Shown here one piece after another: positions 1 to 46,606 of a DNA stretch of 64,000 nucleotides. A model generated the notes under the pieces. The model was not told where the DNA came from, made no database searches, and saw nothing but the letters and a program-made list of their open reading frames with translations. The stretch lies in contig NC_080582.1 in NCBI RefSeq assembly GCF_029962835.1, positions 19,910,032 to 19,974,031 of the forward strand, written 5' to 3'. The position numbers were made by a program, and so were the translations under genes. Each line of letters starts with the position of its first letter. The stretch's first letter is position 1. The DNA is from Magnolia sinica (Eukaryota; Streptophyta; Magnoliopsida; Magnoliales; Magnoliaceae).

Positions 1-1552
1 TCCAAGCTTTCCAAGCATCAAGTGTGGCCCACCTTTTCATCCCTATATCTCTCATCCTAGCCATCCATTTTTCATCTTCCTCCATTAAAGAGAAGCACAA
101 GGAGCTAAGAAAGCCAAGGGAGCAAGAAGATTAAGCGGTGGGTACTTTGATAGGGTAGTTTTTGATGTTTTTAAGATGGGCCAAGTGAGGCCAACCGATC
201 AATGGTTTGGATCTCACTTTGGACCCTAAGATGTGGCCGATGGCCCACTTAGATCATCATGATCATTCCATGATGGGACTATTCTCCATGGACCCCATCA
301 TGATGTTTATTTTTCTTGCATATTTAGGGTCATCTAGACCGTCTAATTTAGTGGGGAAGGGATCTCCACCGTTGGATTTTGGATTTAAGAGGCCTATGTG
401 TAATGGGACCCACTTGATGTATGATTTAGTGCAAGGGAGGGCCCATAATGCCGGGGTCCCTCCATCACGCGTGTCCCACTCTCTATCCCTCTCTCTCCCT
501 CTCTTTCTCTTTTTTTATGTGTGATGATAATGAAGTTGTGTGGCCCACTTGAATGGACCCCACCACAAGGTATATATTCTATCCAAACCATCTACAAGTG
601 GGGCCCACTTTGTGTGTATTGTACCCACACTATACCCCACTTGGTGGCCCACCTAAGCAGGGCCCACCTCCAACGAATATGCTAAGTCCAGCGTCCAGGG
701 ACGCTGGACGTTTGCTGGAAAGAAAAACAAATATTGGCTTGGTTCCAAGCCAATGGGGGAGGCCCACTCATTTTGGCCCTACCTTGATGTATGTCTTCAA
801 TCCACGCCGTCCATTCCCCTCTCAACCTCATTTTAGGCGTTGAACCAAAAAATGGTGTCAACCCGAGGTCCTGGCAGGCCATACAGTAACAAATAGTGGT
901 TTTCACCATTAAAACCTTCCCTATTGCTTTTATACGGCGAAACATGCCCAATATTGGGCTTGTTTTGCTTGTCTGGATCCATGGAGGGCCATTGGACGGA
1001 GTAGATTGTCTAAATGTGGACCCCACCTGTAAAATCCACAGAAAGACTAGAAATCAAAAAAAAAAAACATCACAGCAGCTGCTGTGTCAGAAATGCAGCA
1101 CGCACTACCTGCGTACCAGCGTCCGGGCGGACAGGCAGCCACCCACGGCTCTAGCCGTGGGCCCCACCTTGATGTTTATTTGTCATCTACTCCGTTCAAA
1201 TGGTGGGCCCTAAGGTCAGTGGACCACCCTCCAAATTTCAAGTCTATCCAAGACTCAGGTGGTCGACACCATATGAAACAGTGGGATTGAATCTCTACCT
1301 TTGAAACCCTTTTGGGGTCCACAGAAGTTTTGGATCAGGGTGAAATTTGATTTCACCCTTCATCTAGGTCTACTTGACCTTACCAACGGGTTGGATGGCA
1401 TATCAGATATTATGGTGGGCCCCACATGGAGCCCACAATGATGCACGTGTTTAGCTGCCACCGTCCAGGCGGACGGTGGAGCCCACTGTGATGATGGTGT
1501 TGAGCCCACAGTGAGCCTGTTCGTGTGCGTGCATGTGTGGGTGTGTGTATGT

Positions 1553-1590
1553 ATATTTATATATATATATATAATATTATATTATGTGTA

Positions 1591-1632
<42 letters not shown>

Positions 1633-1650
1633 ATTATATATAATTTGCTG
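1553..1650. repeat. TA microsatellite in 5' LTR
   Basis: Two runs of alternating TA separated by a short TAATATTATATTATG spacer. The 3' LTR has the matching but longer tract near 10305-10410, so the tract changed length after insertion. Confidence 0.9.
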
Positions 1651-1659
1651 GTGATGGGA

Positions 1660-2060
1660 GGCCCATCTTAGTTTACTTGTGGCCTGTGGTCGAGGCCCAC
1701 TTTGATATGTATTTAAGGCCCATCTCAGCTTACTTGTGGCCCATGGTTGAGGCCCACTTTGATTTATATGTAAGGCCCATGGGTCGAGGCCCATTTGATG
1801 TATTAGGGGCCCATGGGTTAAGGCCCATTAAGATGTATAAGGACCTATGGGTTGAGGCCCATTTGATGTACATATGGGGCCCAATTGGCGAGGCCCATTT
1901 GATACACATAAGGCCCATAAGATTAGGCCCATTTGATGTATTCTAAGGCCCACGGGTTATGGCCCATTGCAATACACATAAGGCCCATTGGTGCGGCCCA
2001 TTGATGTGGCCCATTTGATGTATTGAAGGCCCAATGGGATATACCTAAGGTCCATTGCAA
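1660..2060 (+). repeat. GGCCCAT minisatellite inside LTR
   Basis: Irregular units of about 25-35 bp, each containing AGGCCCATTTGATGTAT or a close variant, in well over ten copies. The same array is in the 3' LTR (about 10430-10860), and a shorter related array is in the solo LTR near 28850-29000. It is therefore an old feature of this LTR family. Confidence 0.8.
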
Positions 2061-3476
2061 TGTGCAATCCCAACATGATTTATGTAATGATGTTTACGAC
2101 GGGCTATACCATGGGAGCAATGGCGGTTTGACGTCCCCATTGCAAGTATAGTGTTGGTTAAATGTCCACATTATGACTTTCCCTAGGGCCCATATGTGTA
2201 ATGTGTAGGCCGTTTAGGCCCATCTTCATTATGAACATCATCCATCCCATGTAACATGTTTAATTCCATGATTCATGATCATATGCATCATACGTATGCT
2301 TGATATGAGAAATGACTGATCATAGCATATGCCTTCGGGCAGATTGTTTAGGGGCTCCCATACAAGGGGTGTTGCCCTACATGAGCGCACGATACGCAGG
2401 ATTGCTGTATGACTGGATAGTGTGATTCATGCATTCGCATTGTGTGATATGGTTACTGTACGCCCTAGCGACATCAGGGCCGTAGCCTCCACAGACGTAT
2501 CGTGGTTGGTAGGATTGGATACTGAAAATACTGTTCTACATGGGGTGCGATAGATATCCCTGGGTGAAAGTCCCTAAACCCTTATGGTACCAAGAGGTTG
2601 CTCCAACGTCTAGACCGAGTAGCTGCATGAGCGCTGAGTGCCGATTACCAAATGGTTGCGCTTTCCACTGTGTTGTGGTCGGTTGGAAGGGGGTGCGGCC
2701 TTACCCGCACGAGAATAGGGGCAATGCTAGGCTGAGTCTGACCAGCTCGAGGTATGGGTCCGCTATTGATGAGCTGAGCCCAATATTGGCAGGCGGATAG
2801 TGAAGTCTTTTTCACTCACCTTATTGCGCGCGATGGGGCGGCAATCTGGCTTGGAGTGTACTAGACCCCGGTGATATTCCAGATTTTGAGCTGTATCGAT
2901 ATGTGGACTTAGATGAGGATTTGTATGCTTGAGTTGCATTTCGTATTGCATGGCCTTGGTATGGCCGACACCATCCTTTGCACCGCATGGCCTTAGTACG
3001 GCTATGGTATTCTTGGCATTCATCAGCATGTTCCGCATTACTCTGATACTACATAACTGCATTACCACCTTGCGCACACACTTATACCACCCTCTAAGCT
3101 TTCTATAAGCTTATGCATGACCGTTGCGTGCAGGTGACGTTGGATCGTAGCAGCGCTAAGGCTTGGGCGCGTGGCAGATCATTTTGAAGTTTTTGTTCAT
3201 CTTCATTGTATTTCTCTTTATGCTCATTGTACTTGTAAAGTTTTTGATCATAGTGGAAATGTGATAGAGTTTTTGGTTGTTGTTTGTGGGTTAGGCCTTT
3301 GGTTATGCTTATTACGAATCAAACTGATGTTGAAAATCCTCCTTGCATCCCAGGATCGAAACCTGGCGAATGGGCGCTGAGAGCCGAGAATGGGGTTCTA
3401 CGGAGGCTGTCGGCGCCGGATTCGGCGATCGGGAATTTTGTGAGCCCGATTTTCGAGTTTGGGGGGTGACAGAAGT

Positions 3477-3488
3477 TGGTATCAGAGC
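3477..3488 (+). promoter_or_regulatory. Primer-binding site (initiator tRNA-Met)
   Basis: TGGTATCAGAGC, the usual plant primer-binding site complementary to the 3' end of initiator tRNA-Met, lies five bases after the 5' LTR end. It fixes the orientation and the LTR boundary. Confidence 0.9.
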
Positions 3489-3646
3489 ATAACTCGGGAA
3501 TAACCAAGAACAACATTACATGTCTACTATGAATAATTAAGTCCTAAGTTTGGATAGCCTAAGCGATTTCTTATTACCGACCCTTAACGAGCGTGCCTTC
3601 GAGAGTTTTCAAAGTTGATTGGCACCTTCGCTCTTTCCTGTAGGAC

Positions 3647-4870
3647 ATGCCGCTGCGTAGGAGAGTGACTCGATCGACTCCGGCTCCACCACCTGCAGCT
3701 CCCGCCCTACCACCTACGATTCTCACTCCACCACCAGAAGTTCCTACCGCTCATCCTGAGGATGCTGATCCTCCACCAGAGACTGGTGCGGATCCGACCG
3801 TATCTTTGAGTGCCTCCCAGTTGCAGCAGATGTTGCAGGCTGTGATGGCCGCCCTTCAGGGCCAGGGCAGGCACCCCATCTTTTCACCAGCCCAGGCAGA
3901 ACAGGAGCGCGCGAGTGCCCTCCTTCGAGAGTTTCGACGGCTTGATCCCCCGTGTTTCCAGGGCGAGCCAGACCCTACTATAGCTAAGAGATGATGTTCC
4001 GATGTGGAGAAGATATTTGATACGATGGGATGTACGACCGATCGGCGAGTCCGATTAGCAATATTTCTTCTCCATGGTGAGGCTGAGCATTGGTGGACAT
4101 TAGTCTCTCGAGCAGCAGGCGCCGATTTTACGTGGACATGGGAGGATTTTGTGGATCGGTTTAACCGATAGTATTTTCCTGATCACATCCGACGACAGCG
4201 GGCGTTGGAGTTCGAGGCCTTGGTGCAGGGTGATATGACAGTGGCTCAGTATGCCGCTCGTTTTGTAACACTGTCCCGATTTGCACCATACTTAGTGGAT
4301 GATAAGGAGCGAGAGCCCGTCGATTTGAGGGTGGCTTGCGTTACGGTCTTCGAGGCCGTGTTATTGGGCATGAGCTCCCGACTTTTGAGGAAGTGGTGCG
4401 GAAGGCTCAGATTTTTGAAGCTGAGTGGGACGGTTCTCAGTCTAATCGCGGTCAGAGGAGAGACCGGAAGAGGCAGGCTCCTTCTAGTGATTCTCAGCAG
4501 GGTCGACCGCAGCAGAGGCGCATAGGTCGCCCAGCCTTCCGAGCGCCAGCAACACCTCCACCACCACCTCCGAGGCAGTTCACTGGCACTTGTTTTAGGT
4601 GCGGTGCAGCAAGACACCATATGTGGGAGTGTCCTCGCCCCCAGCAGCAGCAATAGAGAGGTCCACAGCAGCCCCCACCATCACAGCAGCAGCAGAGACC
4701 CCCACAGCAGCAGCGACAGCAGCCCCCACCACCGAGGCCACCTCAGCAGCAGCATCAGCACCAGCCTCCGAGGCCGCAGCAGCAGAGGCAGCAGTTTCGA
4801 CCACCTCAGCGACAGCAGCAGCAGCAGCACGCTCAGAGGGGACAGGCACCTCCCCAGCCGGCTCAGGCTA
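3647..4870 (+). pseudogene. Chromovirus gag remains
   Basis: Gag region of the chromovirus. The start has a Pro/Thr-rich head followed by the capsid-like segment with 'EFRRLDPPCFQGEPDP'. A CCHC zinc knuckle (CFRCGAARHHMWECP) follows near 4590-4640, then a long stretch of CAG-type codons (Gln/Pro-rich) to about 4870. The order and motifs match plant Ty3/gypsy gag proteins, which package the element RNA. It is a broken fossil. Confidence 0.85.
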
Positions 4871-4899
4871 GATTCTATGCGGCCCAGCAGGATCCTCAG

Positions 4900-7800
4900 T
4901 CATCTGGAGGAGTCGTTGAGGGTATACTTCCAGTATCCGCATGCATTGCACGTGTGTTGTTTGATTCTGGTGCATCTCATTCTTTTATGGCAGAGAGTTT
5001 TTGCCGATCGACTGGTTTGCCATTGGAGTCTGCTCATGAGGGGTTGACAGTATCGACTCCCTTGGGGAAGACTGCAGTGTTGGGCCGATTTTGCTCGTCT
5101 TGCCCCGTTCTGGTTGGGGATATCTTTTTGCCTGCCGATCTGTTTGCATTGCCGATGTCCGAGTTCGACGTCATCCTGGGCATGGATTGGCTTGCCGAGT
5201 ACCATGCCATATTAGATTGTTCCGCGAGGACAGTCACGTTTTATATACCTGGCTTGCCGCAGTTCCAGTTCATTGCTGAGCCCAGAGGAGAGTCGTTGTC
5301 TTATTTGATGTCTTGTGCCATAGAGGAGCCCATAGCGGTGAGCATCGACTAGTTGCTTGTGGTTTGCGATTTTCTCGATGTGTTTCAAGAGATTTCAGGA
5401 TTACCGTCTCGTCGACTCACCGAGTTTCAGATTGATCTCGTGCCCGGTACTGCGTCTATTTCAAAGGCCCCATATCATATGGCATCATTAGAGTTGCGGG
5501 AATTGCAGAAGCAGTTGGACGAGTTGCGCGAGTTAGGTTTTATCCGTCGGAGCAGTTCACTGTGGGGAGCGCCGGTACTATTCGTGAAGAAAAAGGATGG
5601 CACGTTGAGGCTCTTCATAGATTACCACGAGCTCAACAAGGTCACGATCAAGAACAAGTACCCGCTCTTGAGGATTGATGATTTGTTTGATCAGCTGCAG
5701 GGTGCACAGTTCTTTTCGAAGATTGACTTGCGTTCCGGTTATCATCAGATTTGGATCCGAGAGGAGGACATTCCGAAGACAGCATTCAGGACGCGTTATG
5801 GTCATTTCGAGTTTCAGGTCATGTCCTTCGGACTGACCAATGCGCCAGCTGTGTTCATGCAGTTGATGAACGAGGTCTTCCGTCCGTATCTCGATCAGTT
5901 TCTTATAGTCTTCATCGACGACATTCTGATTTATTCGAGGGCCCGTGAGGAGCACGAGCAGCATTTAGAGGTTACGTTGCAGACCCTCCGCGCACCCCAG
6001 TTGTATGCGAAGCTGGAGAAGTGCGAGTTTTGGCAGGAGGAGGTGAAGTTCCTCGGTCACGTGGTGACGAGGGAGGGTGTCGCAGTGGACCCCTCGAAGG
6101 TTGAGGCAGTGCGTCAGTGGGGCCAGCCCACGACTGTGTCCGAGATCCGCAGTTTCCTTGGTTTAGCGGACTACTACCTGCGTTTCATTGAGAGCTTCTC
6201 TTGTATTGTAGCCCCGTTGACCAGGTTAACTGGGAAGGGCGTAGAGTTTATTTGGAGTGACGCTTGCGAGTGAGCATTTATGGAGTTAAAGGACCGTCTG
6301 ACGTCCGCTCTTGTTCTCACTCTTCCCTCTGGGAGTGACGGATTTATTGTATTTACTGATGCCTCGCATATTGGTTTGGGTGCTGTCCTGATGCAGCGCG
6401 GGTGACCAGTGGCCTTCGCGTCTCGTCAGCTCAAGGTCCATGAGCTGAAGTACCCCACGCATGATTTAGAGTTGGCTGTAGTTGTCTTTGCACTGAAAGT
6501 GTGGAGACACTATCTCTATGGGGTTAGGTTCGAGCTCTTTTCTGACCATAAGAGCTTAAAGTACCTCTTCTCACAGTCTGAGTTGAACATGAGGCAGAGG
6601 CGCTGGATGGAGCTCCTAAAGAACTATGATTTTGATCTCCAGTACCACCCGGGTAAGGCGAACGTGGTGGCGGATGCCCTTAGCCATTAGCCACGAGGCC
6701 TGGTGGCACATATGATGATTCAGGAGTGGCGGATGCTCGAGGATATAGCAGAGTACGACTTTGAGTTTGGCTTGCAGTCTTCTATTGTGCAGTTATCGAG
6801 CCTGTCGATTCAACCCTCTCTTGTCGCAAGGGTGATCGAGGCTCAGCAGGCAGACGAGTCGTTACAGGATTACCAAGCAGAGGCAGCATCTGAGAGTCAG
6901 GCAAATTGGCAGGTTGGTACAGATGGTGGACTTCGCTTCAGAGGCCGATTATGTGTCCCAGATATTCCTGAGTTACGTAGAGATCTTATTACCGAGGCAC
7001 ATCGATCGCGGTTTTCTATCCATCCTCGCTCGACGAAGATGTACCACGACATGAGGCGACAGTATTTTTGGGTTGATGAAGCGCCAGATCGCCAATTTTG
7101 TGGCCGAGTGTGACACATGCCAGCGTGTCAAGGCCGATCATCAGAGACCCCCTGGTCTATTGCAGCCGTTGAGTGTCCCGATGTGGAAGTGGGAGCACGT
7201 GTCGACAGATTTCATTATGGGTTTGCCGAAGACTCAGCGCGGTCATGACGCCATCTGGGTTATCGTTGATCGACTGACGAAGTCGGCACATTTTATTACG
7301 ATACGTGCGACTTGGCCTTTGGACCGGCTTGAAAGGTTATTCATTGAGAATATTGTGAGACTGCATGGCGTTCCAGTTTCAATCGTTTCTGACCGAGACC
7401 CGAGGTTCACGTCTCAATTTTGGGGGAGCTTCTAGAGAGCGATGGGTTCTGATTTGCAGCTCAGCACCGCGTACCATCCGCAGACCGATGGCCAGACCGA
7501 GAGGGTCAACCAGATCCTTGAGGATATGCTTCGGGCCTATGCGATTGATTTCGGGGGTAGCTGGGATGAGCATCTGCGATTGGCTGAGTTCGCATACAAT
7601 AACAGCCATCAGGCGACCATCGACATGGCTCCTTTTGAGGCACTATATGGCAGACCATGTAGATCACCGAGTTGTTGGACCGAGGTTTGAGAGCGTCGTC
7701 TCCTAGGTCCCGAGCTTGTGCAGGAGACGTTAGAGGCTATTGATATCATCAGGCAGAGAATGCGCACAGCTCAGAGCCAGCAGAAGAGTTTTGCTGATCG

Positions 7801-8248
7801 TCGGCGTCGTCCCTTGGAGTTTGATGTAGGAGACCATGTGTATCTCAAGGTCTTGCCCATGAAGGGCATAGTTCGATTTGGAGCGAAGGGCAAGCTTGCC
7901 CCGAGATTCATAGGACCTTTTGAGATCACTGGGCGCGTTGGCGCTGTGGCCTATCGGCTTGCCTTGCCATCTCAGTTGTCTAGCGTCCACAACGTTGTTC
8001 ATGTCTCCATGTTGAGGAAGTGTGGGTCAGACATCGTTCCTGTTATCGATTGGCAGCCGTTAGAGGTTCGTGAGGACGCTTCCTATATTGAGCAGCCAGT
8101 CCGTATCCTTGATCGGAAGGAGCAGGTCTTCCGGACTAAGGTCATTCCGTTGGTGAAGGTTCAGTGGGGTCACCATTCTGTTGAAGAAGCTTCTTGGGAG
8201 CGCGAGGCTGAGATTCGAGACCGTTATCTCCATCTTTTTGATGATTGA
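4900..8248 (+). pseudogene. Chromovirus pol remains (PR-RT-RH-INT-chromodomain)
   Basis: Protease with the aspartyl motif DSGASHSF (about 4957-4985), reverse transcriptase from about 5500 to 6270 with the FIDDIL catalytic box, RNase H to about 6690 with the [14 protein letters not shown] signature at its end, the integrase zinc finger and DDE core from about 6960 to 7690, and a C-terminal chromodomain (about 8110-8245, 'VQWG..SVEEASWE') typical of plant chromoviruses. The chromodomain is known in this family to guide integration toward heterochromatin. The reading frame is interrupted several times. Confidence 0.9.
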
Positions 8249-8380
8249 TTGTGTTGTATTTTGTATGTTATCTCTGATGTTATATGATGATGGGTATGTT
8301 TCTTCTTCCTTGTGAGTTATGCTTTAGTTGCAATGATTATGTAAATTTCGAGGATGAAATTTTTATTAGGAGGGGAGAGC

Positions 8381-10343
8381 TTTAAGCCCTGTATCCTAGA
8401 CCGTACCGTTCCATAGGCTTCTGCGGTCTTTCCGGTCGAATTTCGACAACCTTCGACCCTTAACCGGTATTTGCACGCGACCTTAATTCTCTTGCCGTCA
8501 ACCCGAGTCGACTCAACCCAGGACTTGTACCTTAGCGACCGCGTCGTCGCCGCGGTTCCGATGCTACGACTCGCGCGCTGAGGCGATACCCTGGTTGGGA
8601 GATGTGGGCCAGCGTTCGGTGCGAGGAAAACGCCGCGAGTCCGAATTCTGAGAGAATCTCTATAAGGTGTCACATCAATCAATCAACCTATCAATCCCAT
8701 CATGTCAAGTACACATCACCTTTCACCCTTTCCCAAGCAAGCCCCAAAAGTCAAAAAGTTTCTTACAACCCATGCTTTTCTTACAATTTTTACCACAAAA
8801 GTCAAAAAGGAGCCTCTTACACCCATCACCACCACATCCATCACTCTATCACCCATCACTCCCTCTCTCTCTCCCTTTACAAGTCTCTCTCTCATTTTCA
8901 AACTCTCCTTTAAGCAAGAAAAATCCATACGTATGAACCTCTCCAAGCTTCCCAAACATCAAGTGTGGCCCACCTTTCCATCCCTAGATCTCTCATCCTA
9001 GCCATCCATTTCTCATCTTCCTCCATTAAAGAGAAGCACAAGGAGCTAAGGAAGCCAAGGGAGCAAGAAGATCAAGCGGTGGGTGCTTTGATAGGGTAGT
9101 TTTTGATGTTTTTAAGATGGGCCAAGTGAGGCCAACCGATCAATGGTTTGGATCTCACTTTGGACCCTAAGATGTGGCCGATGGCCCACTTGGATCATCA
9201 TGATCATTTCATGATGGGGCCATTCTCCATGGACCCCATCATGATGTTTATTTTCCTTGCATATTTAGGGTCATCTAGACCGTCTAATTTAGTGGGGAAG
9301 GGATCTCCACCATTGGATTTTGGATTTAAGAGGCCTATGTGTAATGAGACCCACTTGATGTATGATTTAGTGCAAGGGAGGGCCCATAATGCCGGGGTCC
9401 CTCCATCACGTGTGTCCCACTCTCTATCCCTCTCTCTCCCTCTCTTTTTCTTTTTTTTATGTGTGATGATAATGAAGTTGTGTGGCCCACTTAAATGGAC
9501 CCCACCACAAGGTATGTATTCCATCCAAACCATCTACAAGTGGGGCCCACTTTGTGTGTATTGAACCCACACCATACCCCACTTGGTGGCCCACCTAAGC
9601 ACGGCCCACCTCCAACGAATATGCTAAGTCCAGCGTCCAGGGACGCTGGACGTTTGCTGGAAAGAAAAACAAATATTGGCTTGGTTCCAAGCCAATGGGG
9701 GAGGCCCACTCATTCTGGCCCTACCTTGATGTATGTTTTCAATCCACGCCGTCCATTCCCCTTTCAACCTCATTTTAGGCGTTGAACCAAAAAATGGTGT
9801 CAACCCGAGGTCCTAGCGGGCCATACAGTAGCAAATGGTGGTTTTCACCATTAAAACCTTCCCTATTGCTTTTATACGGCGAAACATGCCCAATATTGGG
9901 CTTGTTTTGCTTGTCTGGAGCCATGGAGGGCCATTGGACGGAGTAGATTGTCTAAATGTGGACCACCCTCCAAATTTCAAGTCTATCCAAGACTCAGGTG
10001 GCCCACACCGTATGAAACAGTGGGATTGAATCTCTACCTTTGAAACCCTTTTGGGGTCCACAGAAGTTTTGGATCAGGGTGAAATTTAATTTCACCCTTC
10101 ATCTAGGTCTACTTGACCATACCAACGGGTTGGATGGCATATCAGATATTATGGTGGGCCCCACATGGAGCCCACAGTGATGCACGTGTTTAGCTGCCAC
10201 CGTCCAGGCGGACGGTGGAGCCCACTGTGATGATGGTGTTGAGGCCACAGTGAGCTTGTTCGTGTGCGTGCATGTGTGGGTGTGCGCGTGTGTGTATGTA
10301 TATTTATATATATATATATATAAAATATTATATTATGTGTAAT

Positions 10344-10401
<58 letters not shown>

Positions 10402-12281
10402 ATTATATATAATTTGCTAGTGATGGGAGGCCCATCTCAGTTTACTTGTGGCCTGTGGTCGAGGCCCACTTTGATATGTATTTAAGGCCCATCTCAGCTT
10501 ACTTGTGGCCCATGGTTGAGGCCCACTTTGATTTATATGTAAGGCCCATGGGTCGAGGCCCATTTGATGTATTAGGGGCCCATGGGTTAAGGCCCATTAA
10601 GATGTATTAGGACCTATGGGTTGAGGCCCATTTGATGTACATATGGGGCCCAATTGGCGAGGCCCATTTAATACACATAAGGCCCATAAGATTAGGCCCA
10701 TTTGATGCATTCTAAGGCCCACGGGTTATGGCCCATTGCAATGCACATAAGGCCCATTGGTGCGGCCCATTGATGTGGCCCATTTGATGAATATGAGGCC
10801 CATATGATACGGCCCATTTGATGTATTGAAGGCCCAATGGGATATACCTGAGGTCCATTGCAATGTGCAATCCCAACATGATTTATGTAATGATGTTTAC
10901 GACGGGCTATACCTTGGGAGCAATGGCGGTTTGACGTCCCCATTGCAAGTATATTGTTGGTTAAATGTCCGCATTATGACTTTTCCTAGGGCCCATATGT
11001 GTAATGTGTAGGCCGTCTAGGCCCATCTTCATTATGAACATCATCCATCCCATGTAACATGTTTAATTCCATGATTCATGATCATATGCATCATACGTAT
11101 GCTTGATATGAGAAATGACTGATCATAGCATATGCCTTCGGGCAGATTGTTTAGGGGCTCCCGTACAAGGGGTGTTGCCCTACATGAGCGCACGATACAT
11201 GCAGGATTGCTGTATGACTGGATAGTGTGATTCATGCATTCGCATTGTGTGATATGGTTACTGTACGCCCTAGCGACATCAGGGTCGTAGCCTTCACAGA
11301 CGTATCGTGGTTGGCAGGATTGGATACCGAAAATACTGTTCTACATGGGGTGCGATAGATATCCCTGGGTGAAAGTCCCTAAACCCTTATGGTACCAAGA
11401 GGTTGCTCCAACGTCTAGACCGAGTGGGTGCATGAGTGCTGATTTCCGATTACCAAACAGTTGCGCTTTCCACTGTGTCATGGTCGGTTGGAAGGGGGTG
11501 CGGCCTTACCCGCCCGAGAGTAGGGGGCAATGCTAGGCTGAGTCTGACCAGCTCGAGGAATGGGTCCGCTATTAACGAGCTGAGCCCGATATTGGCAGGC
11601 GGATAGTGAGGTCTTTTCCATTTACCTTATTGCGCGCGATGGGGCAGCAATCTGGCTTGGAGTGTACTAGACCCCGATGATATTCCAGATTTTGAGCTGT
11701 ATCGATATGTGGACTTAGATGAGGATTTGTATGCTTGAGTTGCATTTCGCATTGCATGGCCTTGATATGGCCGACACCATCCTTTGCACTGCATGGCCTT
11801 GGTACGGCTATGGTATTCTTGGCATTCATCAGCATGTTCCGCATTACTCTGATACTGCATAACTGCATTACCATCTTACGCACACACTCATACCACCCTC
11901 TAAGCTTTCTATAAGCTTATGCACGACCGTTGCATGCAGGTGACATTGGATCGCAGCAGCGCTGAGGCTTGGGCGTGTGGCAGATCATTTTGGAGTTTTT
12001 GTTCATCTTCATTGTATTTCCCTTTATGCTCATTGTACTTGTAAATTTTTTTATCATAGTGGATATGTGATGGAGTTTTTGGTTGTTGTTTGTGGGTTAT
12101 GCCTTTGGTTATGCTTATTACGAATCAAACTGATGTTGAAAATTCTCCTTGTAGCATCCCAAGATCGGAACCTGGCGAATGGGTGCTGGGAGCCGAGAAT
12201 GGGGTTCTACGGAAGCTGTCGGCGCCGGATTAGGCGATCGAAAATTTTGTGAGCCCGGTTTTCGAGTTTGGGGCGTGACAG
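8381..12281 (+). repeat. 3' LTR of the chromovirus
   Basis: About 3.9 kb. It follows the purine-rich AGGAGGGGAGAG and ends in GGGGCGTGACA, like the 5' LTR. The start was set by alignment with the solo LTR at 26281 (TGTAAGACCC there, a TTTAAGCCC variant here). The right neighbour is Athila DNA, so 12281/12282 is the insertion boundary. Confidence 0.85.
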
Positions 12282-13598: not shown

Positions 13599-14816
13599 TG
13601 TTGAGGGTCAAATATTACATATTAGACTCAATTATTACCTGGATTTACAAGCATGATACCATTCAATGGCCCGATTTAATCGTGTTTGTGATGCAGAGTG
13701 TATTTACGAGCATGGACTGAAAAATAGTATCAAAAGCGTAGATTTGACACTCCGAAGTCACCAGAGTAAGGGACGCACTCCAGAGAACTAAGAATGAAGA
13801 ATTTACATGCCAGGGATCCGAGGAAATCAAGCCATTCACGTTAAAGAGGCCCGAAATTGGTGAAGAATGCAAGATCACATAGTTCCCGCCATCTGATTGG
13901 CTCGAAAATTCATACATGGCCTGGGAGATATAAATAAACCGTACGTATTAAATTTCAACCATTGGAGATCTCGAGAAATGGGCCAACGGACAGATCAGCC
14001 CATTAATCTCCAATTTGGGGCCCACCTAGTTTCTAGATACGCTGCAATTTTGGACTCAACGCCTTAAATGAGGCGGAAAAATGGATGGACGGCACAGATT
14101 TCTCTCGAACATCACGATGAACCCATATGTAGATTGCATGTATATAGGGTACATGTGCACGAGAAGTGCACCGGACGGAGAGTCCGGTCAAGCAAAGGGC
14201 TGACCCGAAGTCCGTTTTTGAAAAGGAAATAGTGTCCGACGTTGTTTCGCCGGGTGATCGCTGTGGGCCCCACTCGCTCCTCAGTTCGATGATCCGACTT
14301 GTTCACATGTCTTATAAGATGGCTAAGACCAACGCCTAGGTGTCTTTTTGCCACTATGTAATTGTCTTCACGATCCCAGCCGTTAAACGCAGGATGGACG
14401 GCGGAGTAGAAGATCTTGTGTACCCCACCGCTTTCACTCCAAAAATCACCATTCCCGAATCGTTTTTCGCAAGGATTTCAATGGACGGTGTCGATTTCTC
14501 AACCGAACTCGATCATGGACTCCACCAACATCACAGCGCAAGAAGTGCACAGGCTCTGTTGCGCGCAACCGAAAGATCCGGGCCGTTCTGCAATCTCGGT
14601 GAGGATCGGACTGACGATCCTAGCCGACCAAATCCTTCCCCTGAGGCAATTGACCACCACCAAGAAGTTCGAATGGATCAGATGTTCGAAAGCGGGTCCT
14701 CCACCGGTTGCTGCGTACTGACTGCGTAAAGGTTGATACGCAAGCCCCAGCCGACCCCGCTGCTGCGGAAAACTTCCGCATAGAGTGCGGAAACTCTACT
14801 CCGACTATAGTTCTAT

Positions 14817-14880
<64 letters not shown>

Positions 14881-15698
14881 TGTGTGTGTGTGTGTAAAAG
14901 GTGATGAACCGGGATCCAAATCGTGGACGGCTGCACAAGAGAGAGAGAGTCAGAGTTTTTATTATTTAGTTTTTAGTACTTATGTTTATGTTTAAAAAAG
15001 TTAGCCGGATTATGTCGGGCTAAACCTCTTAGCTAGGGCTAAGAGGTGAAGCTTGTAGTCTGATGGGAGAGACTTTGCTTGTGCCTATTGTTTAGACTGA
15101 CTGATGTTGATTTTTGTTCAAATTAAAAAGAATACTTTCTGTTATTTTTAATGGTTTGTTGTGACTGAAATTACAATAGATCTGCGATGGTTTTGAGTAT
15201 TTCTTCCTCCTTTTGATGTTTATGACGTCAGGAAGCCCTGTTATTCACCATCGTCTCATGGGCATGGTCGGATGGCGGTATCCTTCCTAACTTCCATGCA
15301 TTGTTGATTGGTTGGTAATTAGTTTAATTCTGTTGTTTGCTTTGTCTCATGGGCATGGTTTGATGATGGAATCCATTCTGATTCATATACCTTTCATCTC
15401 GTGAAGACTAAATCAAGTAAGTTCAGTTTGATTTCGATGATTCTTGATGCAGGCATAAGATCTCCCTGATCTCTACAAGTGGATCCTCTGAATCCCTAGT
15501 TTCCTTCCTCTGAATTCCTTAAGTTTTAGATTAGTATTTCACCATTATTCATCAATTTATATTTGATTTCGATTTCATCTTAGGCTATTTCTATTTCTAC
15601 CCAGTTTCAGATAACGTACAGGTTTCAGTCCCTTGGGATTGACCTCGGTCTCACCTAGTTTATTACTACATCACAACCCTATACTTGGGGAGTGAACA
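13599..15698 (+). repeat. Athila 3' LTR abutting the DIM1 start codon
   Basis: The boundaries come from short inverted ends TGTT...AACA, the preceding purine tract (13588-13595), and the known Athila tail pattern (a 'CCCTTGGGATTGACCTCGGTCTCACC' type sequence near 15630, then CCCTATACTTGGGGAGTGAACA). A TATA-like CTATAAAG is at about 14812, followed by an AG/TG microsatellite, so the LTR promoter region would be intact enough to test. Length is about 2.1 kb. Confidence 0.7.
14810..14895 (+). promoter_or_regulatory. TATA-like box plus (AG)n(TG)n tract in the Athila LTR
   Basis: TCTATAAAG is directly followed by about 58 bp of AG repeat and about 18 bp of TG repeat. Within an LTR this is where the promoter and transcription start are expected. 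If used, transcription would run rightward into DIM1 exon 1 with a leader of roughly 0.8-0.9 kb. This is inference from position only. Confidence 0.4.
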
Positions 15699-15699
15699 G

Positions 15700-15819
15700 A
15701 TGTCATACCTTCTGCCCCACCTGCATTCGGGTTGGGCCGTCGATCAGGCGATCCTCGCCGAAAAAGAACGGGTGGTAGTCATACGCTTCGGCCACGACTG
15801 GGACGATATCTGCAAGCAG
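15700..15819 (+). CDS. YLS8: DIM1/YLS8 exon 1
   Basis: Encodes residues 1-40, including the family signature VVIRFGHDWD and the conserved Cys38. The ATG at 15700 matches the family N-terminus; the in-frame codons upstream belong to the Athila LTR. The segment DDICKQ differs from the usual D-E/P-T-C-M-Q/K. The donor CAG|GTATGTCAT is strong. Confidence 0.9.
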
Positions 15820-18800
15820 GTATGTCATCTTTTTTCTCTTCTTTCCTCTTTGAATTCCTCCACGGCAATGGTTTTTCCATTCAATTTGGATCTCAGCAAA
15901 CCCTAGACGATTAAGAATCCCCGAGTTCTGTTCCATAGATTCTTACCGCAGTTTTGATGATCGTCATCTGTTCTTTCCCTAGACTATAAAGAATCCTCGA
16001 TTTCTGTTCCATAGATTCTTACCGCAGTTTTTTATGATCTTCATCTGTTCTTTTATGTCTCCCATGATTTGCTGATCTTTGATGAATTCTAGTTTTTAGC
16101 TGTTTGAAATTGTTAGGGTTTTCTTGGACCAGTCTCGTTGTCCAGTGAAATCGACCTTTTTCATCAACTGATTTGAATTTGTATCGAAAGGAAGGAAGCA
16201 TATTCTCATCTGTTGATTGTTACTGTTTTGTAGATTTTTCAGTGAATTTTGGTGTTATGTTGTTGGTGGTCGCCTACGGGTTCTTGGATTGATGCAATCA
16301 AGCTGGAAAAATTATATATTTTTGTCAGATTGTAGGTAGAATATCATTGGTGTTGTGTGTGTGTGTGTGTTTATTTTTATTTTTATTTAAAAAAAAAAAA
16401 TATTTAAATAATGACAATTTATTGAAGGTAAAAATAAAAGAACTCCTAATGTGATAGTGTTGCCAACATGCAAGTACCATCTCACTGCCTCTTTAGCGAA
16501 TGTATCTGCATTGGAATTAGCCTATATGGGAACTAAACTAAAAGATATATAAAGAAGGTTCAGCTCCTTAATGTCATTACACAAAAGTAACACTACCAAA
16601 GAAACTGAATGGATCCAGCTGAGCACGATAATACACATTTTGCGTATCACCGTTGTACATATTTACAGACATGCATATAAATGCAATTTTGTATTTATCT
16701 GCACTATGCTAGGGCTCCAATGCAAAAGAAGGTGATCAGAAGACAAAAATACAATGGTATTAGAGAAAAGAGGATCATATGAATCCTTGGCCTCAGGCAT
16801 TCAGTTTTGACATGTGAGGCCCATAGCTTAACAACTCAGAATATTAGTTGGTTTTGGTATGACTAACAATGGAGATCGTTGCCCAAGATATGATTGTTTC
16901 AAGATATGATTGTTGGAACCCGAGCAACAAGGTGAAGACAGGCAAAACCTTGGGAAAGATGTCTCCTTCCCTTGCAAAACCGATGGGTTCGAAACATGCG
17001 GGTTCGGAAGTGATTATGCATTTGAATGTCCTCGAGCATGCATGGGGCTCCTTCCAATGGATCCTGGTTGCCTCTATTAGACCAAGAGCTGTGGAGGAGA
17101 TGTGAGAGTGGCAATCGTAGGATCGTAGCATGGAAGAAGGAGACAAGAGTCTTAAGCTTTTGAGTGATTTCACGATATGGATTTCTCTTCGACCTTAAGC
17201 AAATGTCGACAACTTCTTTATCATTTGCAATGTGTATAGGGATGGCTCAATTCGAGCTATCTATAGGTGGGAGGAATAGTCGACTTTCGGATGGGATGAA
17301 GCATGGTACAATATCTAGGAGCTCCCAATGGAGTACCAGATCCACAATTTTCATGGAGTTCTTACATTGGTGGAGTGGTTGTGATCGATCCAAGTTTAGA
17401 AAGGTGTGAAATGCTTCGGTTTGCCAGAATCTACATAAGATGGAATGAGCTTGCTCCTATGCTAGAGAAGATTTCCATCAGTGAAGGGATTACAGGATCA
17501 CGATTTGGATGATTATGGAATTAGCTAGTTGCTATGAGATTCAACAACAAAAGCATTCTCCAAGGCACTCCATCTCGATGAAGGATAAGGCAGATTGGGA
17601 GCTTGTGTTGTAAGTTGATTTAAAGGAAGATGATGTTTAGGTCTATTGCTCTTGTGGACCATCAGACATTGTGGAGGGGATGTGGAAGTGTCTGATATGT
17701 CTAGTGGGGTAGGTGGGGAAGTGTTGCTTGATGGAGTGACACACGTCCTGTCAAGTGGTGTATGCAAAGGTGAAGAGATGGAGAGAGGCACCACGTTGTT
17801 GCAAGGGGTATGTAGAGGGCTTTTGTCTGAGCTAGTGACACATGGCGATACTGCCACTCTTGACACAGGGGGAGGGTGATGGACATGTGTAATGGGCTGG
17901 TGGAAGGTGTTAAGGTGACCAATGGAAGCTTCACATGTGGCTAGTTTGCGGGTGCTAATTTCCAATTGTGTTTTTACCTATGTATGAAGTCGCTCGGGTC
18001 GAGAACTCTCTCGCGGTCCGTGTGGATGATCACTTAACAGACGACACGTGTGGGAGATGCTTCTCGATTTTTCAGCGAATGCAACCTCATTCAATTCAAA
18101 GGATCTGCTTGTTGTGGGAAGGGATGTGTGTGAGGTATTTTCTTGGCACCTCTTATGGATTACGATTTCTCTTCTCCAACTTCTTTGCCTAGGAATCTCC
18201 ACTGAGGGGTTGATTTCTGATTGTCGGTGAAGATAATTAGTTAGAATGTAAGCTCTTCTAAAAAAGAAAAAGAAAAAAAAAAAGAAAGAAAGAAAGAAGA
18301 AGATGCAGGTGATTGATTAGAGAATAGTAGACTCTTGCTTCTCTCTCTCTCTCTCTCTCTTTACAAATTGGGTTTGGTTGATTAAAGATTGGGTGGGGCT
18401 AGATGCAGTGGGATCATTGGGGGGCATTTTTGTATGTAAGGATCGGATTTCTAAAAATAGGAAAGAATTTTCAAATTGGATTCTACCAAATGAGATGGTG
18501 GATCTACTGAGGGGTGTGTGTGAAGGTTAAATGGGCAATCTAGAGTGGTTAAATCAAAATCGGATTTATTTTTTCCCACAGTTTGGGCACAGAAGCTTTC
18601 TCTCATGCATATAAGAGGACTTCCAAGGCTAATTTCAGACCGTTGCCCAGTTGCTTTGGCAATGGATGAGGATGATAGGGTCTGTGGCTATTTAGGTCTC
18701 AATTATCATGGCCTGAAATTGATGGATTTTCAAAGCTGTGGAAGAGCAGTGTTCATCCTTCGCGGTTGAGGGTTTTGTGGGTTTTTTGTTTTTTCAAAAA

Positions 18801-21800
18801 CTTCAGATTACTTAAGGGCATGTTTTTGTTACCAGTTACCACAATAATATAAAGGAAATGTCCAATGATCACAAATTACTTCTCTCCAACAACATTTGTA
18901 TTTAACTCTCGATTCTCGTGTTTGGTTTGTAGGCGGCAAAATCAAAATGATGGCATTTTTAGATTACTTAAATGTCAAATCATTACGAAAATATATTAAC
19001 GTCATTCTTTGGAATAAAGATTTTCACAGTAGTGCCATGAAAAAGTACAATGATTACAAATTCCTTTACCTGTCTCCTGAATGCATCTAAATTTGACTGA
19101 CGACTCCCATGTTTGGTTTGGTGGTGGTATAGTTGTAATGAAGACACTTTTCTTTTCAATTACAGGGGTAACTGGCAAAACAAATAAGCCCTAAAGGCAT
19201 GATTAATGCATGTAAGAAAGAGGTTCTTTGGAACCATGAAGCTAAGTTGTCAAATCGCATATGCGATTATATGCGATCAACATATGTTGTTCGCATATGC
19301 GATCGCACAATCGCATATGCCATAGCATATTTCTTATAAAATAATAAAAAATTTAAAAATGAAAAAAAATCTTAAAAAATAGGAAAAACTTGCCTAATTA
19401 GTACACATGATTGGATTGGGTTATTTTACTTATTTCATTATAGTTTGAGTGTTTCATTAAGTTATATATTTAATTATTTATATTATATTATATAAATTTT
19501 AACAAAACAATCAAGCTACATTAAAAGAGAACCAATTATTATAAACTTCGAGTAAAGAAATTTTACTGATAAATGGATAACTTGAAACAACTTACAAGTT
19601 ATAACTTACGGCTTAATTTACAAAAAGTAAGCACAATTATAAAACACAAAAAAAAAAAAAAAAAAAAAATACTTGAAGTAATTGTAGAGAGATTAGAGTA
19701 AGAGAGAGAGTAAGAGATTTAGAGCTTTGGAGTAAAGAATAGTGAAAATGGAGGGGATATGAGTGCCTATTTATAGGCAAAAGTTCTCCAAATTAAAAAA
19801 ATAAAAATAAAAAAATTGCTTCCACTCTGATTATTAGGAAATATGCAATCGCATATGCAATATGCGATTGCATACTTGCATATGCGATCGCATATTGGCC
19901 GCATATAAAAGTATGCCATGGCGTATGACATCATGGCATACTTGCCAAGATCGCATATGCCATCATGGCATATGCGATTTGATCCACAGTATGCGCTTAT
20001 GTGATCGTATATGCGCATATGCGATCGCATTTGACAACTTGTATTGTAATTGGGTACTGTTCATGTATACATTGAATGGTTTTGAGAATACATCCAAATC
20101 AACATGCCATTATTCAATGTTTGGATAGGACGTATTATTCGGGCAAATATACAATTTCTTATACTATGCAATGTTTGGATACGACATATTGAGCCTGCGT
20201 TTTGTACTGTCGTACAACATCTGGAGGGTTATTACCCAATGAAGGAGTAGTGACCTCAATCCAGGCCGTCCGATTTGCTGGCCTTTCGATGGATTCGGGT
20301 TTTTTCTTTTTCCCTCCAAGAGCAAAAATGAACTTAAAAAAAAATAAAAAAAATCACAAATCTAAGATTCTAAAAAGGAATAAAAATAAAAGAGAATAGT
20401 ATCACCTCATACTATTCTATTACCAAAAGCAGAAAGCATGGGTGTATTTATTAGTCAGATGGACTTTTTTAAAACGAAAAAAAAAACAAAGATCAAAACA
20501 GAGAGGATTATAAGAGAGAGGATCCTTCTTCAGTAGAGAGAGATTCGTGTTCTTCCGATCACCGTTGATACTCGATCGAGATGAAGGTACGACGGTCTGG
20601 ATGGAAGCAGGGATCCAGATCCTTAAGAGAGAAAATGCCATCTTGACCCTGGATAAGGTTTTGATAGACGGAGGAGGAGAAAGAGGATGTAGATGGAGAT
20701 GGAGAAAGAAAGGCACTGACAAGCGTCCTAAAACTATAAAGAAGATAATAACCATGATGATCCTAATAGTGTGGTTCTAGACTCATCTCTCACGGAATGC
20801 TGCTACATGCAGGGTTTTGCGTGGAGAGAGAGAAACAATGGAGAGGAGAGAGATTACACCATAGCCCAGTGGTATATAGATTATCAATACTAACAGAGGA
20901 AACTATTCCGCAGTTGAATGGCCACATGCACTGGGAAAAAAACGATACTATGCGATGATGGAACAGGATATCTCCGTTCTTCATAGTTGAAACGTATAAT
21001 ATCCAAAGAGGTATACGCCGCCCGATAATATTATGCATTGAAGAGACTGCACTGCACGATGCAGTGGCGTCTCAAATCAGTTTACCGCCTTTTGAAAGTT
21101 TTTGATTATTGGTGTATTCGCACGCATGGTAAACGCCGGAAGCCAGCTCTAATCCAAACGCTGTATAATGGGTATATTCGAGAATATTCTGTTATAATAC
21201 CATACAACGCACCCTTATACGCGAATCCAAACAGGCCCTAATGTAAAAATACTCAAGCCCTTGATATAATGGAAGAAGGTATGGCTCTTTCGAAAGGAAA
21301 AGCTTTGCCAGAGACTTATTTGGCGGCATATAATCTTTTGAGGGAAGAGAAAAACCATATGGAAGCATTGGTCTAGGGCGAGTTGGCTCAAAGAATTGGA
21401 CAAAAATACAAATTTTTTCATGCAATGGCTAGTGCCCGGGCTAGAGCTAACAAAGATCAAAAGTGTTTCGATGGATGGGGAGAGGTTAGAGGACAGATAA
21501 AAAATGTGTGGTGCCATTGTTAAGTTTTTCAAAGACCTTACTGGGAAAGGGTGAGTAAGGTCGTGACTAGAAATCTTGCGTTTTGATTTAATTTCAAGCA
21601 AAGGTAAGAGTATCCTGGTAGTGACAAGGCCTTTGGTCTGAATGGATTCCCCTTGGCTTTCTTTTAAAAGTATTTGTGAAGTAGTAAAAGGCGACTTGGT
21701 GGGCTTCATCAATGAATTTCATGGTAACGAGAACCCTGCAATAGAGTTGGGTCTAATTTTTATTGCTATCAAACCAAAAAAGGGAGGAGTAAAACATTTG

Positions 21801-27300: not shown

Positions 27301-27339
<39 letters not shown>

Positions 27340-33300: not shown

Positions 33301-34551
33301 CCTTTTGTCTTGGCACAGTGGAGGAGTGAGAAAGGTAGAGATGGCAATCTGGAGACTTTGTTGGCTGGCATTTGGTTTTACTTTGGGGGAGAGGAACAAT
33401 CATTGTTTTAGTTGTAGCGGGCGGGCTTTGGAGGTTTTTAGCAGGGCTAAATTGAATGTAATGGGGTAGGCCTTAGCCTCAAGGGTTTTAGTCGGTAGGT
33501 CTCCCCCTCCACACACACACACCCCTGCGATCTTTCTTGGTCTGATTTGTAGTTCTTTTTGCATTGGCCTCACTTAATAAAATCGTCACCTTCCACATTG
33601 TAGGAAAAAAATGAATTTCATAATGTGAAGGCATACATTGACAATGCAAAGCAAATAATGTATTTTTTTCATAATGTGGAGGGCATACATTGACAATGCA
33701 AAGCAAATAATGTATTTTTTTCATAATGTGGAGGGCATACATTGACAATGCAAAGCAAATAATGTGTCTTTTACAATGCTTTTGTACCTGAATGTGTTAG
33801 CAAAACAAATGGATAACTCTTTTTGTGATTGTGATGGGATTGATTTCACTTTTGGTTTGTATGTACCTGAATGTGTTAGCAAAACAAATGGATAACTCTT
33901 TTTGTGATTGTGATGGTATTGATTTCACTTTTGGTCTGTATGTAGATGGATGAGGTGCTGGCTTCAGTTGCAGAGACTATTCATTTTGCTTTGGCCTCAC
34001 TTAATAAAATCGTCACCTTCCACATCGTAGGAAAAAAAAATGAATTTCATAATGTGAAGGCATACATTGACAATGCAAAGCAAATAATGTATTTTTTCAT
34101 AATGTGGATGGCATACATTGACAATGCAAAGCAAATAATGTGTCTTTTACAATGCTTTTGTACCTGAATGTGTTAGCAAAACAAATGGATAACTCTTTTT
34201 TTGATTGTGATGGGATTGATTTCACTTTTGGTCTGTATGTAGATGGATGAGGTGCTGGCTAAAGTTGCAGAGACTATAAAGAACTTTGCTGTCATTTACC
34301 TGGTAGATATCACCGAGGTGCCCAACTTCAACACCTTGTATGAGCTGTACGACCCCTCGACTGTCATGTTCTTCTTCCGCAACAAGCGCATGATGATTGC
34401 CTTGGGCACGATAAACAACAACAAGATCAACTGGGCTCTCAAGGACAAGCAGGAGTTTATTGACATCATCGAGACTGTCTACAGGGGAGCAAGGAAAGGC
34501 CAAGGTCTGGTCATTGCACCAAAGGATTACTCAACTAGGTACCGATATTGA
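15700..34551 (+). CDS. YLS8: Thioredoxin-like U5 snRNP protein (DIM1/YLS8 homologue), two exons
   Basis: Exon 1 (15700-15819, 40 codons) joins exon 2 (34243-34551, 102 codons plus stop) in phase 0 with GT/AG borders (CAG|GTATGT and TGTAG|ATG). The product is 142 residues, exactly the family length. It begins MSYLLPHLHSGWAVDQAILA and ends KDYSTRYRY. The family (Dib1/DIM1, human TXNL4A) has a thioredoxin fold and is a component of the U5 snRNP and the U4/U6.U5 tri-snRNP in the nucleus, needed for pre-mRNA splicing. Several positions that are almost invariant from yeast to plants differ here (see findings). The 5' neighbour is an Athila LTR ending two bases before ATG, and the intron is 18.4 kb of nested mobile DNA. 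It may be a working gene with an unusual promoter or a decaying duplicate. Confidence 0.85.
15820..16430. other. Start of DIM1 intron, no gene
   Basis: T-rich intron-like sequence. It includes an imperfect direct repeat of 'AATCCCCGAGTTCTGTTCCATAGATTCTTACCGCAGTTTT' type sequence (about 15913-15955 and 15989-16030) and a GT tract near 16350-16370. I see no coding signal. Confidence 0.6.
16435..16640 (-). pseudogene. LINE RNase H-like (RVT_3) C-terminal fragment
   Basis: Reading the minus strand gives ANSNADTFAKEAVRWYLHVG, matching the conserved 'R.AN..AD.LAKE' end of the RNase H domain attached to plant non-LTR retrotransposons. The preceding minus-strand sequence also resembles that domain but is degraded. 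It is opposite in strand to the larger LINE that follows, so it is a separate insertion. Confidence 0.5.
16840..18240 (+). pseudogene. LINE ORF1-like region with DUF4283 remnant
   Basis: A degraded coding stretch. The best-preserved part (about 17310-17480) reads 'VVVIDPSLERCEMLRFARIY', which matches the core of DUF4283 proteins encoded by ORF1 of plant L1-type LINEs ('G.F..ID..T.....L..ARI.V'). Flanking frames are too eroded to name. Its position upstream of endonuclease and reverse transcriptase remains on the same strand supports a single LINE. Confidence 0.5.
18545..18770 (+). pseudogene. LINE endonuclease C-terminal fragment
   Basis: The frame contains 'LPRLISDRCPVALAMDEDD', matching the end of the apurinic-type endonuclease domain of plant LINEs ('LPR..SDH.P..L'). 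It is followed after the insertions at 18815-21239 by the reverse transcriptase part of what appears to be the same element. Confidence 0.6.
18815..19192. mobile_element. MITE with 26-bp inverted ends
   Basis: The left end AGGGCATGTTTTTGTTACCAG is the imperfect inverse of the right end CTGGCAAAACAAATAAGCCCT. Length is 378 bp, AT-rich, no coding. A clear target duplication is not visible. It lies inside the LINE. Confidence 0.6.
19244..20040. mobile_element. TIR element with GCATATGCGATCGC subterminal arrays
   Basis: The ends are inverse copies: AAGTTGTCAAATCGCATATG on the left and the complement ending TTTGACAACTT on the right. About 80 bp at the left and about 190 bp at the right are built from variants of the self-complementary word GCATATGCGATCGCATATGC; the middle is AT-rich and non-coding. 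Subterminal repeats of this kind are typical of non-autonomous hAT- or CACTA-like elements. The exact superfamily is uncertain because no clear target duplication is visible. Confidence 0.65.
20041..21239. other. Unassigned insert between LINE parts
   Basis: No recognisable coding domain. The right edge AATCCAAACAGGCCCTA is typical of the end of a plant DNA transposon (GGGCCTGTTTGGATT family), so part of this stretch is probably another non-autonomous insertion. The purine-rich part 20460-20720 has short open frames that I cannot name. Confidence 0.4.
22553..22748. mobile_element. Small MITE inside the LINE reverse transcriptase
   Basis: The LINE frame reads KSRY up to about 22553 and resumes at R(H)LSLGGR near 22755, which shows the insert. 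The ends are loosely inverse (ATGGTATTGGTAACAGTAAC and GTCACCATTACCGTT), with repeated GTAAC/GTTAC words. About 195 bp. Confidence 0.5.
23687..23916 (-). repeat. 3' LTR of the copia element (left copy)
   Basis: Matches 32954-33186 along its whole length. It is followed on the right by the complement of the polypurine tract. Confidence 0.85.
24063..25034 (-). pseudogene. Copia RT (3' part) and RNase H
   Basis: The best-preserved piece of the copia element. It has the YVDDIVLSG catalytic box of Ty1/copia reverse transcriptase, 'FLKTKFEIKDLGPLRYFLGIEV', and the RNase H signatures 'STSGFFTFLSGNLITWKSKRQ' and 'SSAETEYHAMA'. The tail 'LHCDNQAAIHIARNPVF' is also typical. It is part of a fossil element. 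Confidence 0.9.
25746..26240 (-). pseudogene. Copia integrase C-terminal part
   Basis: The minus strand reads 'PRAIKCVFLGYTWSQKGYKCFDP', the conserved end of Ty1/copia integrase, followed upstream by 'SRTSCVRTPQQNSVAE' of the integrase core, where the solo gypsy LTR interrupts. Degraded. Confidence 0.85.
26281..30466 (+). repeat. Solo LTR, Tekay-type gypsy, inserted in the copia element
   Basis: Starts TGTAAGACCC and ends GGGGCGTGACA, flanked on both sides by CCCCC (26276-26280 and 30467-30471) as a 5 bp target duplication. Its ends and several inner blocks are related to the chromovirus LTRs at the left of the window, but it is clearly diverged, so it is a different subfamily. No internal region is present, so it is the product of LTR-LTR recombination. 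It carries a TA microsatellite near 27305-27332 and a minisatellite at 28256-28760. Confidence 0.9.
28256..28760 (+). repeat. About 70-bp minisatellite in the solo LTR
   Basis: About seven to eight imperfect units, each with the pattern GTGGGCCCTA..CAGGTCCACATGACCT..(A)GTTGGATGG.AAA.AAA.AT(T/A). Unit length varies around 60-75 bp. Confidence 0.8.
30660..31328 (-). pseudogene. Copia gag end / gag-pre-integrase
   Basis: The minus strand reads 'HMTGKFQFFSSYFPSPH', 'DLHTKRVIGGGHERGGVYLF' and 'WHCRLGHPSITRLKILFP', the protease-to-pre-integrase stretch of Ty1/copia polyproteins (conserved HxxxGHP..R). Part of the fossil copia element. Confidence 0.9.
32003..32308 (-). pseudogene. Copia gag N-terminal part
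   Basis: 'LNDDNYLKWAQSVKVFLGAREKL' and 'IWDTLHDLFSESQN' are typical of the gag domain (UBN2 / retrotran_gag_2 type) of plant Ty1/copia elements. It lies just inside the 5' LTR and primer-binding site, as expected. Confidence 0.85.
32954..33186 (-). repeat. 5' LTR of the copia element (right copy)
   Basis: Matches 23687-23916. The LINE frame continues directly on its right side. Confidence 0.85.
33566..34277 (+). repeat. Tandem duplication spanning LINE tail, intron end and exon 2 start
   Basis: Unit 1 (33566-33981) and unit 2 (33982-34277) each run from the LINE tail (TTGCnTTGGCCTCACTTAATAAAATCG), through inner subrepeats (a 52-bp ATAATGTGGAGGGCATACATTG-type unit, three copies then two; a 79-bp GTACCTGAATGTGTTAGC-type unit, two copies then one), to the acceptor and the first 35 bp of exon 2. 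The joint fuses exon sequence GAGACTAT to LINE tail. Confidence 0.85.
33946..33980 (+). pseudogene. Decoy partial copy of DIM1 exon 2
   Basis: After an identical acceptor (GTCTGTATGTAG) it encodes MDEVLASVAETI, then runs into LINE-derived sequence and stops about 60 codons later. Ser at residue 47 matches the family consensus, whereas the real exon has Lys, so this copy keeps the older state. If spliced in, it would give a truncated product. Confidence 0.8.
34243..34551 (+). CDS. YLS8: DIM1/YLS8 exon 2
   Basis: Encodes residues 41-142 with the conserved blocks NFAVIYLVDITEVP, YELYDPSTVMFFFRNK and NNNKINWALKDKQEFIDIIE. The acceptor is CTGTATGTAG|ATG. Changes against the family consensus include D68N, H89R, D93A and G97I (numbering of the 142-residue protein). 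Confidence 0.9.
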   Translation: MDEVLAKVAETIKNFAVIYLVDITEVPNFNTLYELYDPSTVMFFFRNKRMMIALGTINNNKINWALKDKQEFIDIIETVYRGARKGQGLVIAPKDYSTRYRY

Positions 34552-41830: not shown

Positions 41831-42023
41831 TGTTAGACAGGCCACATGCCTTGTATAACTAATTTCTATAGATAGATGATGTATAGCTAATTTCCATAGA
41901 TGGATGACTCTGTTTTTAAACATTTACCTTGTATAGACATCTGTAAAGCTCTATATATTCAACCCTTCAGGTTGTCTCAAATACACAGAAAACCAAAGGA
42001 GAATTGTTTTCTCTTTGCTTTCA
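41831..42023 (+). repeat. 5' LTR of plus-strand copia
   Basis: Starts TGTTAGACAGG and ends CTTTCA. It contains CTCTATATATTC, a probable TATA region, near 41950. Confidence 0.9.
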
Positions 42024-43450: not shown

Positions 43451-43459
43451 CTAGCAAAT

Positions 43460-46504: not shown

Positions 46505-46606
46505 TCAGATTGCAGCATTCTCACGAAGTCCCTCACTTCTGCACATCACTCATTTCTAGTTGGCAAACTATTACTTATCGATGACCAGCATTAGTTTGAG
46601 GGGGGA

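Follow-up and report, generated by a model that had tools for sequence, protein, structure and literature searches.

In Magnolia sinica, an Athila-like Ty3/gypsy retrotransposon has inserted at the start codon of one copy of DIM1, the gene for the protein U5-15K, and the five bases that are duplicated on its two sides include the ATG. We are fairly confident of the following reading: the gene was a redundant duplicate, probably free of constraint by the time the element hit it, it lost its promoter, and it is now probably a pseudogene. The window, that is, the whole stretch of 64,000 nucleotides that was analysed (C10:19910032-19974031), belongs to a genome described as having a size of 1.84 Gb, 19 chromosomes and a scaffold N50 of 92 Mb (PMC10999834); ONT data and a PacBio transcriptome of the species are mentioned in the same paper. 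The literature that was searched yielded no report on the locus itself.

A preliminary description of the window had the LTR end at 15698 and the DIM1 ATG start at 15700. This is indeed the arrangement: after the 3' LTR comes a single G, the only intervening base, and then the ATG at 15700-15702. The boundary is a property of the LTR family. A genome search for the LTR gave 4820 candidates, of which 40 were scored. Apart from the window, which is among them, these matches (39 in number) all break off between window positions 15696 and 15706. In seven other LTRs that we read (L002-L008), the terminal sequence GAGTGAACA precedes sequence dissimilar to DIM1; one of them, L002, is the 5' LTR of the same element, and there the PBS region comes next. 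An LTR end recognized by a mere chance match can thus be rejected, since the boundary is common to the 39 scored matches and the seven LTRs read. The 22 bases spanning the junction between LTR and DIM1 have one exact match in the genome; C3 and C18 hold two further matches, with 2 mismatches. As far as the exact junction goes, its single occurrence leads us to reject a retrocopy of an mRNA running from the LTR into DIM1.

The left junction of the element lies outside the window, and reads AAGGAGAAGAGATGT followed by TGTTGAGGG (L018:4115-4138). The 5' LTR starts at C10:19901129 (L018:4130), and the five bases immediately before it are GATGT. A duplication of GATGT including the start codon had been predicted, together with the place where its left copy should be sought, and both copies are where they should be; two 5-mers agree by chance once in 1024 times. 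The DIM1 paralogue on C4 provides the empty site: it reads GGAGCAGAGATGTCATACC, with a single GATGT and without LTR, and in the same stretch this copy, C4a, is uninterrupted (AGAGATGTCATACC). Each of the two flanks on C10, taken up to GATGT, aligns to this one contiguous paralogue. The matching pentamers and the uninterrupted paralogue therefore place the element at the start codon, with the native promoter 24.6 kb away. They also answer the suspicion that a read ending in an LTR was misjoined to DIM1 during assembly: the region is rich in repeats, and one assembly was examined, but an artefact would have to produce identical 5-bp duplications 24.6 kb apart, and flanks that both match one contiguous paralogue. 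We reject misassembly on this evidence, and give it next to no credence. Table 1 gives the coordinates of the features.

Table 1. Features of the locus and of the DIM1 family; positions are those of the window unless a contig or a scale in Mb is given.
Feature	Position	Strand	Remarks
3' LTR, 2100 bp, TGTTGAGG...GTGAACA	13599..15698	+	pair of the 5' LTR in the 24.6-kb Athila-like element
5' LTR, 2081 bp	C10:19901129-19903209, outside the window		from alignment to the 3' LTR; PBS-like sequence next
Right target-site duplication GATGT	15699..15703	+	ATG inside; left copy C10:19901124-19901128
DIM1 (U5-15K) exon 1, 40 codons	15700..15819	+	intact GT donor
DIM1 exon 2, 102 codons and stop TGA	34243..34551	+	open
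Decoy start of exon 2, 35 bases long	33946..33980	+	tandem duplication with a 297-bp shift; own AG acceptor
TATA-like box CTATAAA	14813..14819	+	directly upstream of a GA/GT microsatellite
Putative LTR leader (R-U5)	14840..15699	+	20 upstream ATGs
Second LTR element, inside the Athila-like element	1..12281	+	left LTR starts ~0.56 kb before the window
C4a	C4:29099456 to 29087554		encodes the canonical protein
C4b	C4, 29.20 Mb		one-base deletion in exon 1, TAA in exon 2
C10b	19.147 Mb		exon 1 not found; resemblance to DIM1 lost from codon 125 on, TGA there
Distant DIM1-like gene (L029)	C10:81139830-81141080		TXNL4B type by reading; apart from the four close copies

The native promoter and 5' UTR had been described as displaced, and they can now be located upstream of the element, 24.6 kb from the coding exon. 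Over about 0.5 kb, the left flank shows homology to the promoter of C4a, the copy at C4:29099456 (57 differences in 505 aligned sites), the final part of this flank matches the 5' leader of C4a, and the native TATA box lies 111 bp left of the element. Transcripts from this promoter would now read into ATGTTGTTG, in which the left ATG opens a frame of 33 codons that terminates in the 5' LTR. The right-hand ATG has a C at position -3, formerly a G. One might conjecture that the native promoter still drives DIM1, the retention of its TATA box being in favour, with some 24.6 kb removed as an intron. However, such a transcript would have to cross two LTR retroelements, and the left ATG opens the short frame into the LTR; we hold this to be extremely improbable.

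The element has paired LTRs of 2081 and 2100 bp, with ends TG...CA, and the 5-bp duplication GATGT. These traits are shared by most plant LTR elements, and are hence not specific to Athila (PMC6317226). Its inner part was scanned against Pfam as eight separate frame pieces: four have matches and four match no family. The matches, each above its cut-off, come in the order Retrotrans_gag, Asp_protease_2, RVT_1, RT_RNaseH, Integrase_H2C2, rve, which is the order gag-protease-RT-RNaseH-integrase of Ty3/gypsy elements. Following the 5' LTR is AGTTTTTGGCGCCATTGCCGGGGA, composed of AGTTTT and then TGGCGCCATTGCCGGGGA. It may be a primer site of the tRNA-Asp type, the 3' end of tRNA-Asp having one mismatch to TGGCGCCATTGCCGGGGA.

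The putative primer site and the size of the LTRs, compared with those of Diaspora, an Athila element of soybean (PMC1142308), make Athila the likely assignment. As described there, Diaspora also has a long LTR, of 2524 bp, the same domain order and a 5-bp target duplication; the putative primer site here would correspond to its tRNA-Asp-type PBS a few bases past the LTR. Here the spacer before the PBS has 6 bases, against 5 in Athila and Diaspora (PMC1142308). Unlike these elements, ours is interrupted by a nested element, and the eight frame pieces scanned contain no match to ATHILA ORF-1 (PF03078), a domain given as present in only 16% of Athila elements (PMC6317226).

The nested element has LTRs of 3.9-4.0 kb, at 1-3472 (truncated where the window begins) and at about 8381-12281, a PBS that reads TGGTATCAGAGC, and, by reading its ends, a target duplication GTAAA. 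The divergence of the two pairs of LTRs does not follow the order of the nesting. The LTRs of the Athila-like host have 67 differences in 2046 aligned sites, a K2P distance of 0.0337, or 0.0172 outside CG/CHG sites; those of the nested element, which must be younger, stand at K = 0.0369, or 0.0271 outside CG/CHG. They are thus not less diverged than those of the older host, with P = 0.60 for all sites and P = 0.04 outside CG/CHG, which suggests LTR conversion or differences in rate.

The gene at the right of the element has 142 open codons, and its two exons are separated by an intron of 18.4 kb with GT/AG ends; the C4 paralogue is likewise laid out in two exons. Residues 1-142 match human hDim1 (1qgv) over its full length with E = 2e-77, and both exons match PF02966; the DIM1/U5-15K/YLS8 proteins, of thioredoxin fold, likewise have 142 residues in the account of PMC6897961. 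Identity to hDim1 is 111/142 for the window copy and 122/142 for C4a. The intron contains a decoy of the start of exon 2, and splicing at its acceptor, just before 33946, would give a product of 113 residues without most of the protein encoded by exon 2. This duplication is found only in the window copy, the examined stretches of C4a, C4b and C10b being single copy. The decoy retains the ancestral codon for S47, which the real exon 2 has lost.

A PF02966 profile search of the genome yields nine exon matches, which we read as five loci. Over 4.6-4.7 kb of shared intron, the four close copies form the tree ((window, C10b), (C4a, C4b)). Dim1 is called essential in fission yeast (PMC10457676). As far as sequence goes, the window copy is dispensable to the set, since C4 carries a canonical copy that is intact. 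Together with the two broken siblings, C4b and C10b, this intact paralogue makes the family a small natural series on the death of duplicates of a conserved spliceosomal gene.

Between the window copy and C4a, 24 coding nucleotides differ. In protein sequence, 14 of the 142 residues are not the same, and at 8 of these sites C4a, human and 2av4 DIM1 all have one and the same residue. With C4b used to assign changes to branches, the window branch carries 16 replacements and 6 silent changes, and the C4a branch 0 and 2; one ambiguous silent site, at position 288, was assigned to the window branch. Four sites, two of them silent and two replacement, are common to the window copy and C10b; one of the replacement sites falls in the damaged tail of C10b. 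The share of replacements on the window branch, 16/22, does not depart from the neutral share of 0.78 (P = 0.60), as would be the case for a gene that has lost its constraint, with the reserve that the numbers are small. Similarly, 22 neutral changes are expected to alter 14.7 residues on average, and 14 are altered. A Fisher test finds no significant difference between the window and C4a branches (P = 0.10).

The number of replacements can also be compared with the age of the insertion. Since that event, 5.6 replacements are expected by the LTR clock, and 6.2 by the clock of the nested element; the observed 16 have Poisson probabilities of 0.0003 and 0.0007, respectively. By contrast with these clocks, the branch length of 0.045-0.054, our own range from the intron tree, predicts 15-18 replacements. 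In view of this excess over the LTR clock, the window copy was probably already free of constraint before the element arrived, and much of the coding change probably predates the insertion. The LTR clock is a weak one: conversion makes an insertion look younger, and, because the LTRs of the younger nested element are not less diverged, the clock may be too young.

A search of the window coding sequence for frame-breaking lesions found none: start, stop, frame and main splice sites are intact. The lesions of this copy are regulatory and related to splicing, whereas C4b and C10b have coding breaks. According to a simulation, start, stop and frame are kept through 22 neutral substitutions with a chance of about 0.38; the chance of no indel is about 0.17, assuming 0.08 indels per substitution after gap counts in the intron. 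The joint chance of an intact frame under neutrality is thus about 0.07 (0.38 x 0.17), a mild hint of selection that counts against decay.

A candidate for a new promoter is the 3' LTR. A TATA-like box near 14812 had been proposed, and CTATAAA is present close by (Table 1), at a distance from the LTR end that exceeds the one in the 5' LTR by 52 bp. Six of the seven other LTRs have a similar box 834-880 bp before their end, L007 being without one at that distance: four read CTATAAA, including the 5' LTR of the element, and two read CTATAAG. Five of the six belong to copies that, beyond the conserved end block, have mostly diverged in their upstream sequence. A box kept at a like distance amid diverged surroundings supports a real LTR promoter. 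Transcription would then start about 30 bases past the box, near 14845, and a leader of about 0.85 kb is plausible. The upstream frames in this putative leader have at most 24 codons, and all terminate before 15700. An N-terminal extension encoded by the LTR is rejected: the 19 open codons that precede the DIM1 ATG contain no in-frame ATG.

From such a start, splicing 15819 to 34243 would yield a variant form of the U5-15K protein, confined perhaps to cells with active LTRs. The LTR lies on the sense strand, its box recurs in relatives, and the ATG and the open frame are preserved. But a ribosome would meet 20 ATGs before a start codon with a pyrimidine at -3, the intron offers the decoy acceptor, replacements have accumulated at the neutral rate, and, the exact junction occurring once in the genome, the search for it brought up no retrocopy. 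Little speaks for an LTR-driven variant, and we consider it unlikely. The stronger conjecture, that of a divergent U5-15K paralogue, changed at 14 residues and driven by the LTR as a second, LTR-regulated spliceosomal subunit of this species, is very unlikely. If the LTR does drive a variant U5 protein, the locus matters more, and only then.

Our preferred reading is the dying duplicate. The close copies, the canonical copy on C4 and a pattern of change that looks unconstrained favour it over a rewired essential gene. Most likely, the window copy makes no useful DIM1 protein, because its promoter is lost, a repeat LTR lies overhead, the leader is rich in upstream ATGs and the intron has a decoy acceptor.

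The history would then run as follows. An Athila-like Ty3/gypsy retrotransposon inserts at the start codon of the duplicated DIM1 gene on C10. Integrases make staggered cuts that are subsequently filled in; a 5-bp cut at GATGT would thus have left the ATG that is observed on each side. The native TATA box and 5' UTR would have kept the left ATG, and the intact coding exon the right one. Later, a second LTR element would have entered the first, in which it is nested, bringing the gap between promoter and gene to 24.6 kb. Coding change would have gone on at a neutral pace, much of it, judging from the clocks, before the insertion.

The locus is a clean natural case in which a target-site duplication copies a start codon: promoter and coding sequence each retain an ATG, and the frame survives. 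The detail is elegant and yet not novel in kind: that transposons insert upstream of genes in plants is well known (PMC10794571). In TaMATE1B and the grape colour gene, as presented there, the element likewise lies upstream of the coding sequence; here, contrary to these two, the start codon itself is part of the duplication, and the genome has an intact gene to which this one is redundant. TaMATE1B and the grape gene are also genes altered by a transposon (PMC10794571); the DIM1 copy is not known to have changed in expression.

Other repeats were seen in the window. Within the DIM1 intron, a copia-like element, so labeled by its reading frames, occupies 23739-33188 of the minus strand. Its terminal repeats of about 180 bp are 93% alike, and it contains, near 29.0-30.5 kb, fragments of the LTR family of the nested element. 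A second copia-like element, also labeled by reading, lies on the plus strand at 41831-46747, with terminal repeats of at least 141 bp that are 97% alike. Further on, at 51234-55030 on the minus strand, two frames about 2.6 kb apart are presumably parts of a gene for a fasciclin-like arabinogalactan protein, which they resemble.
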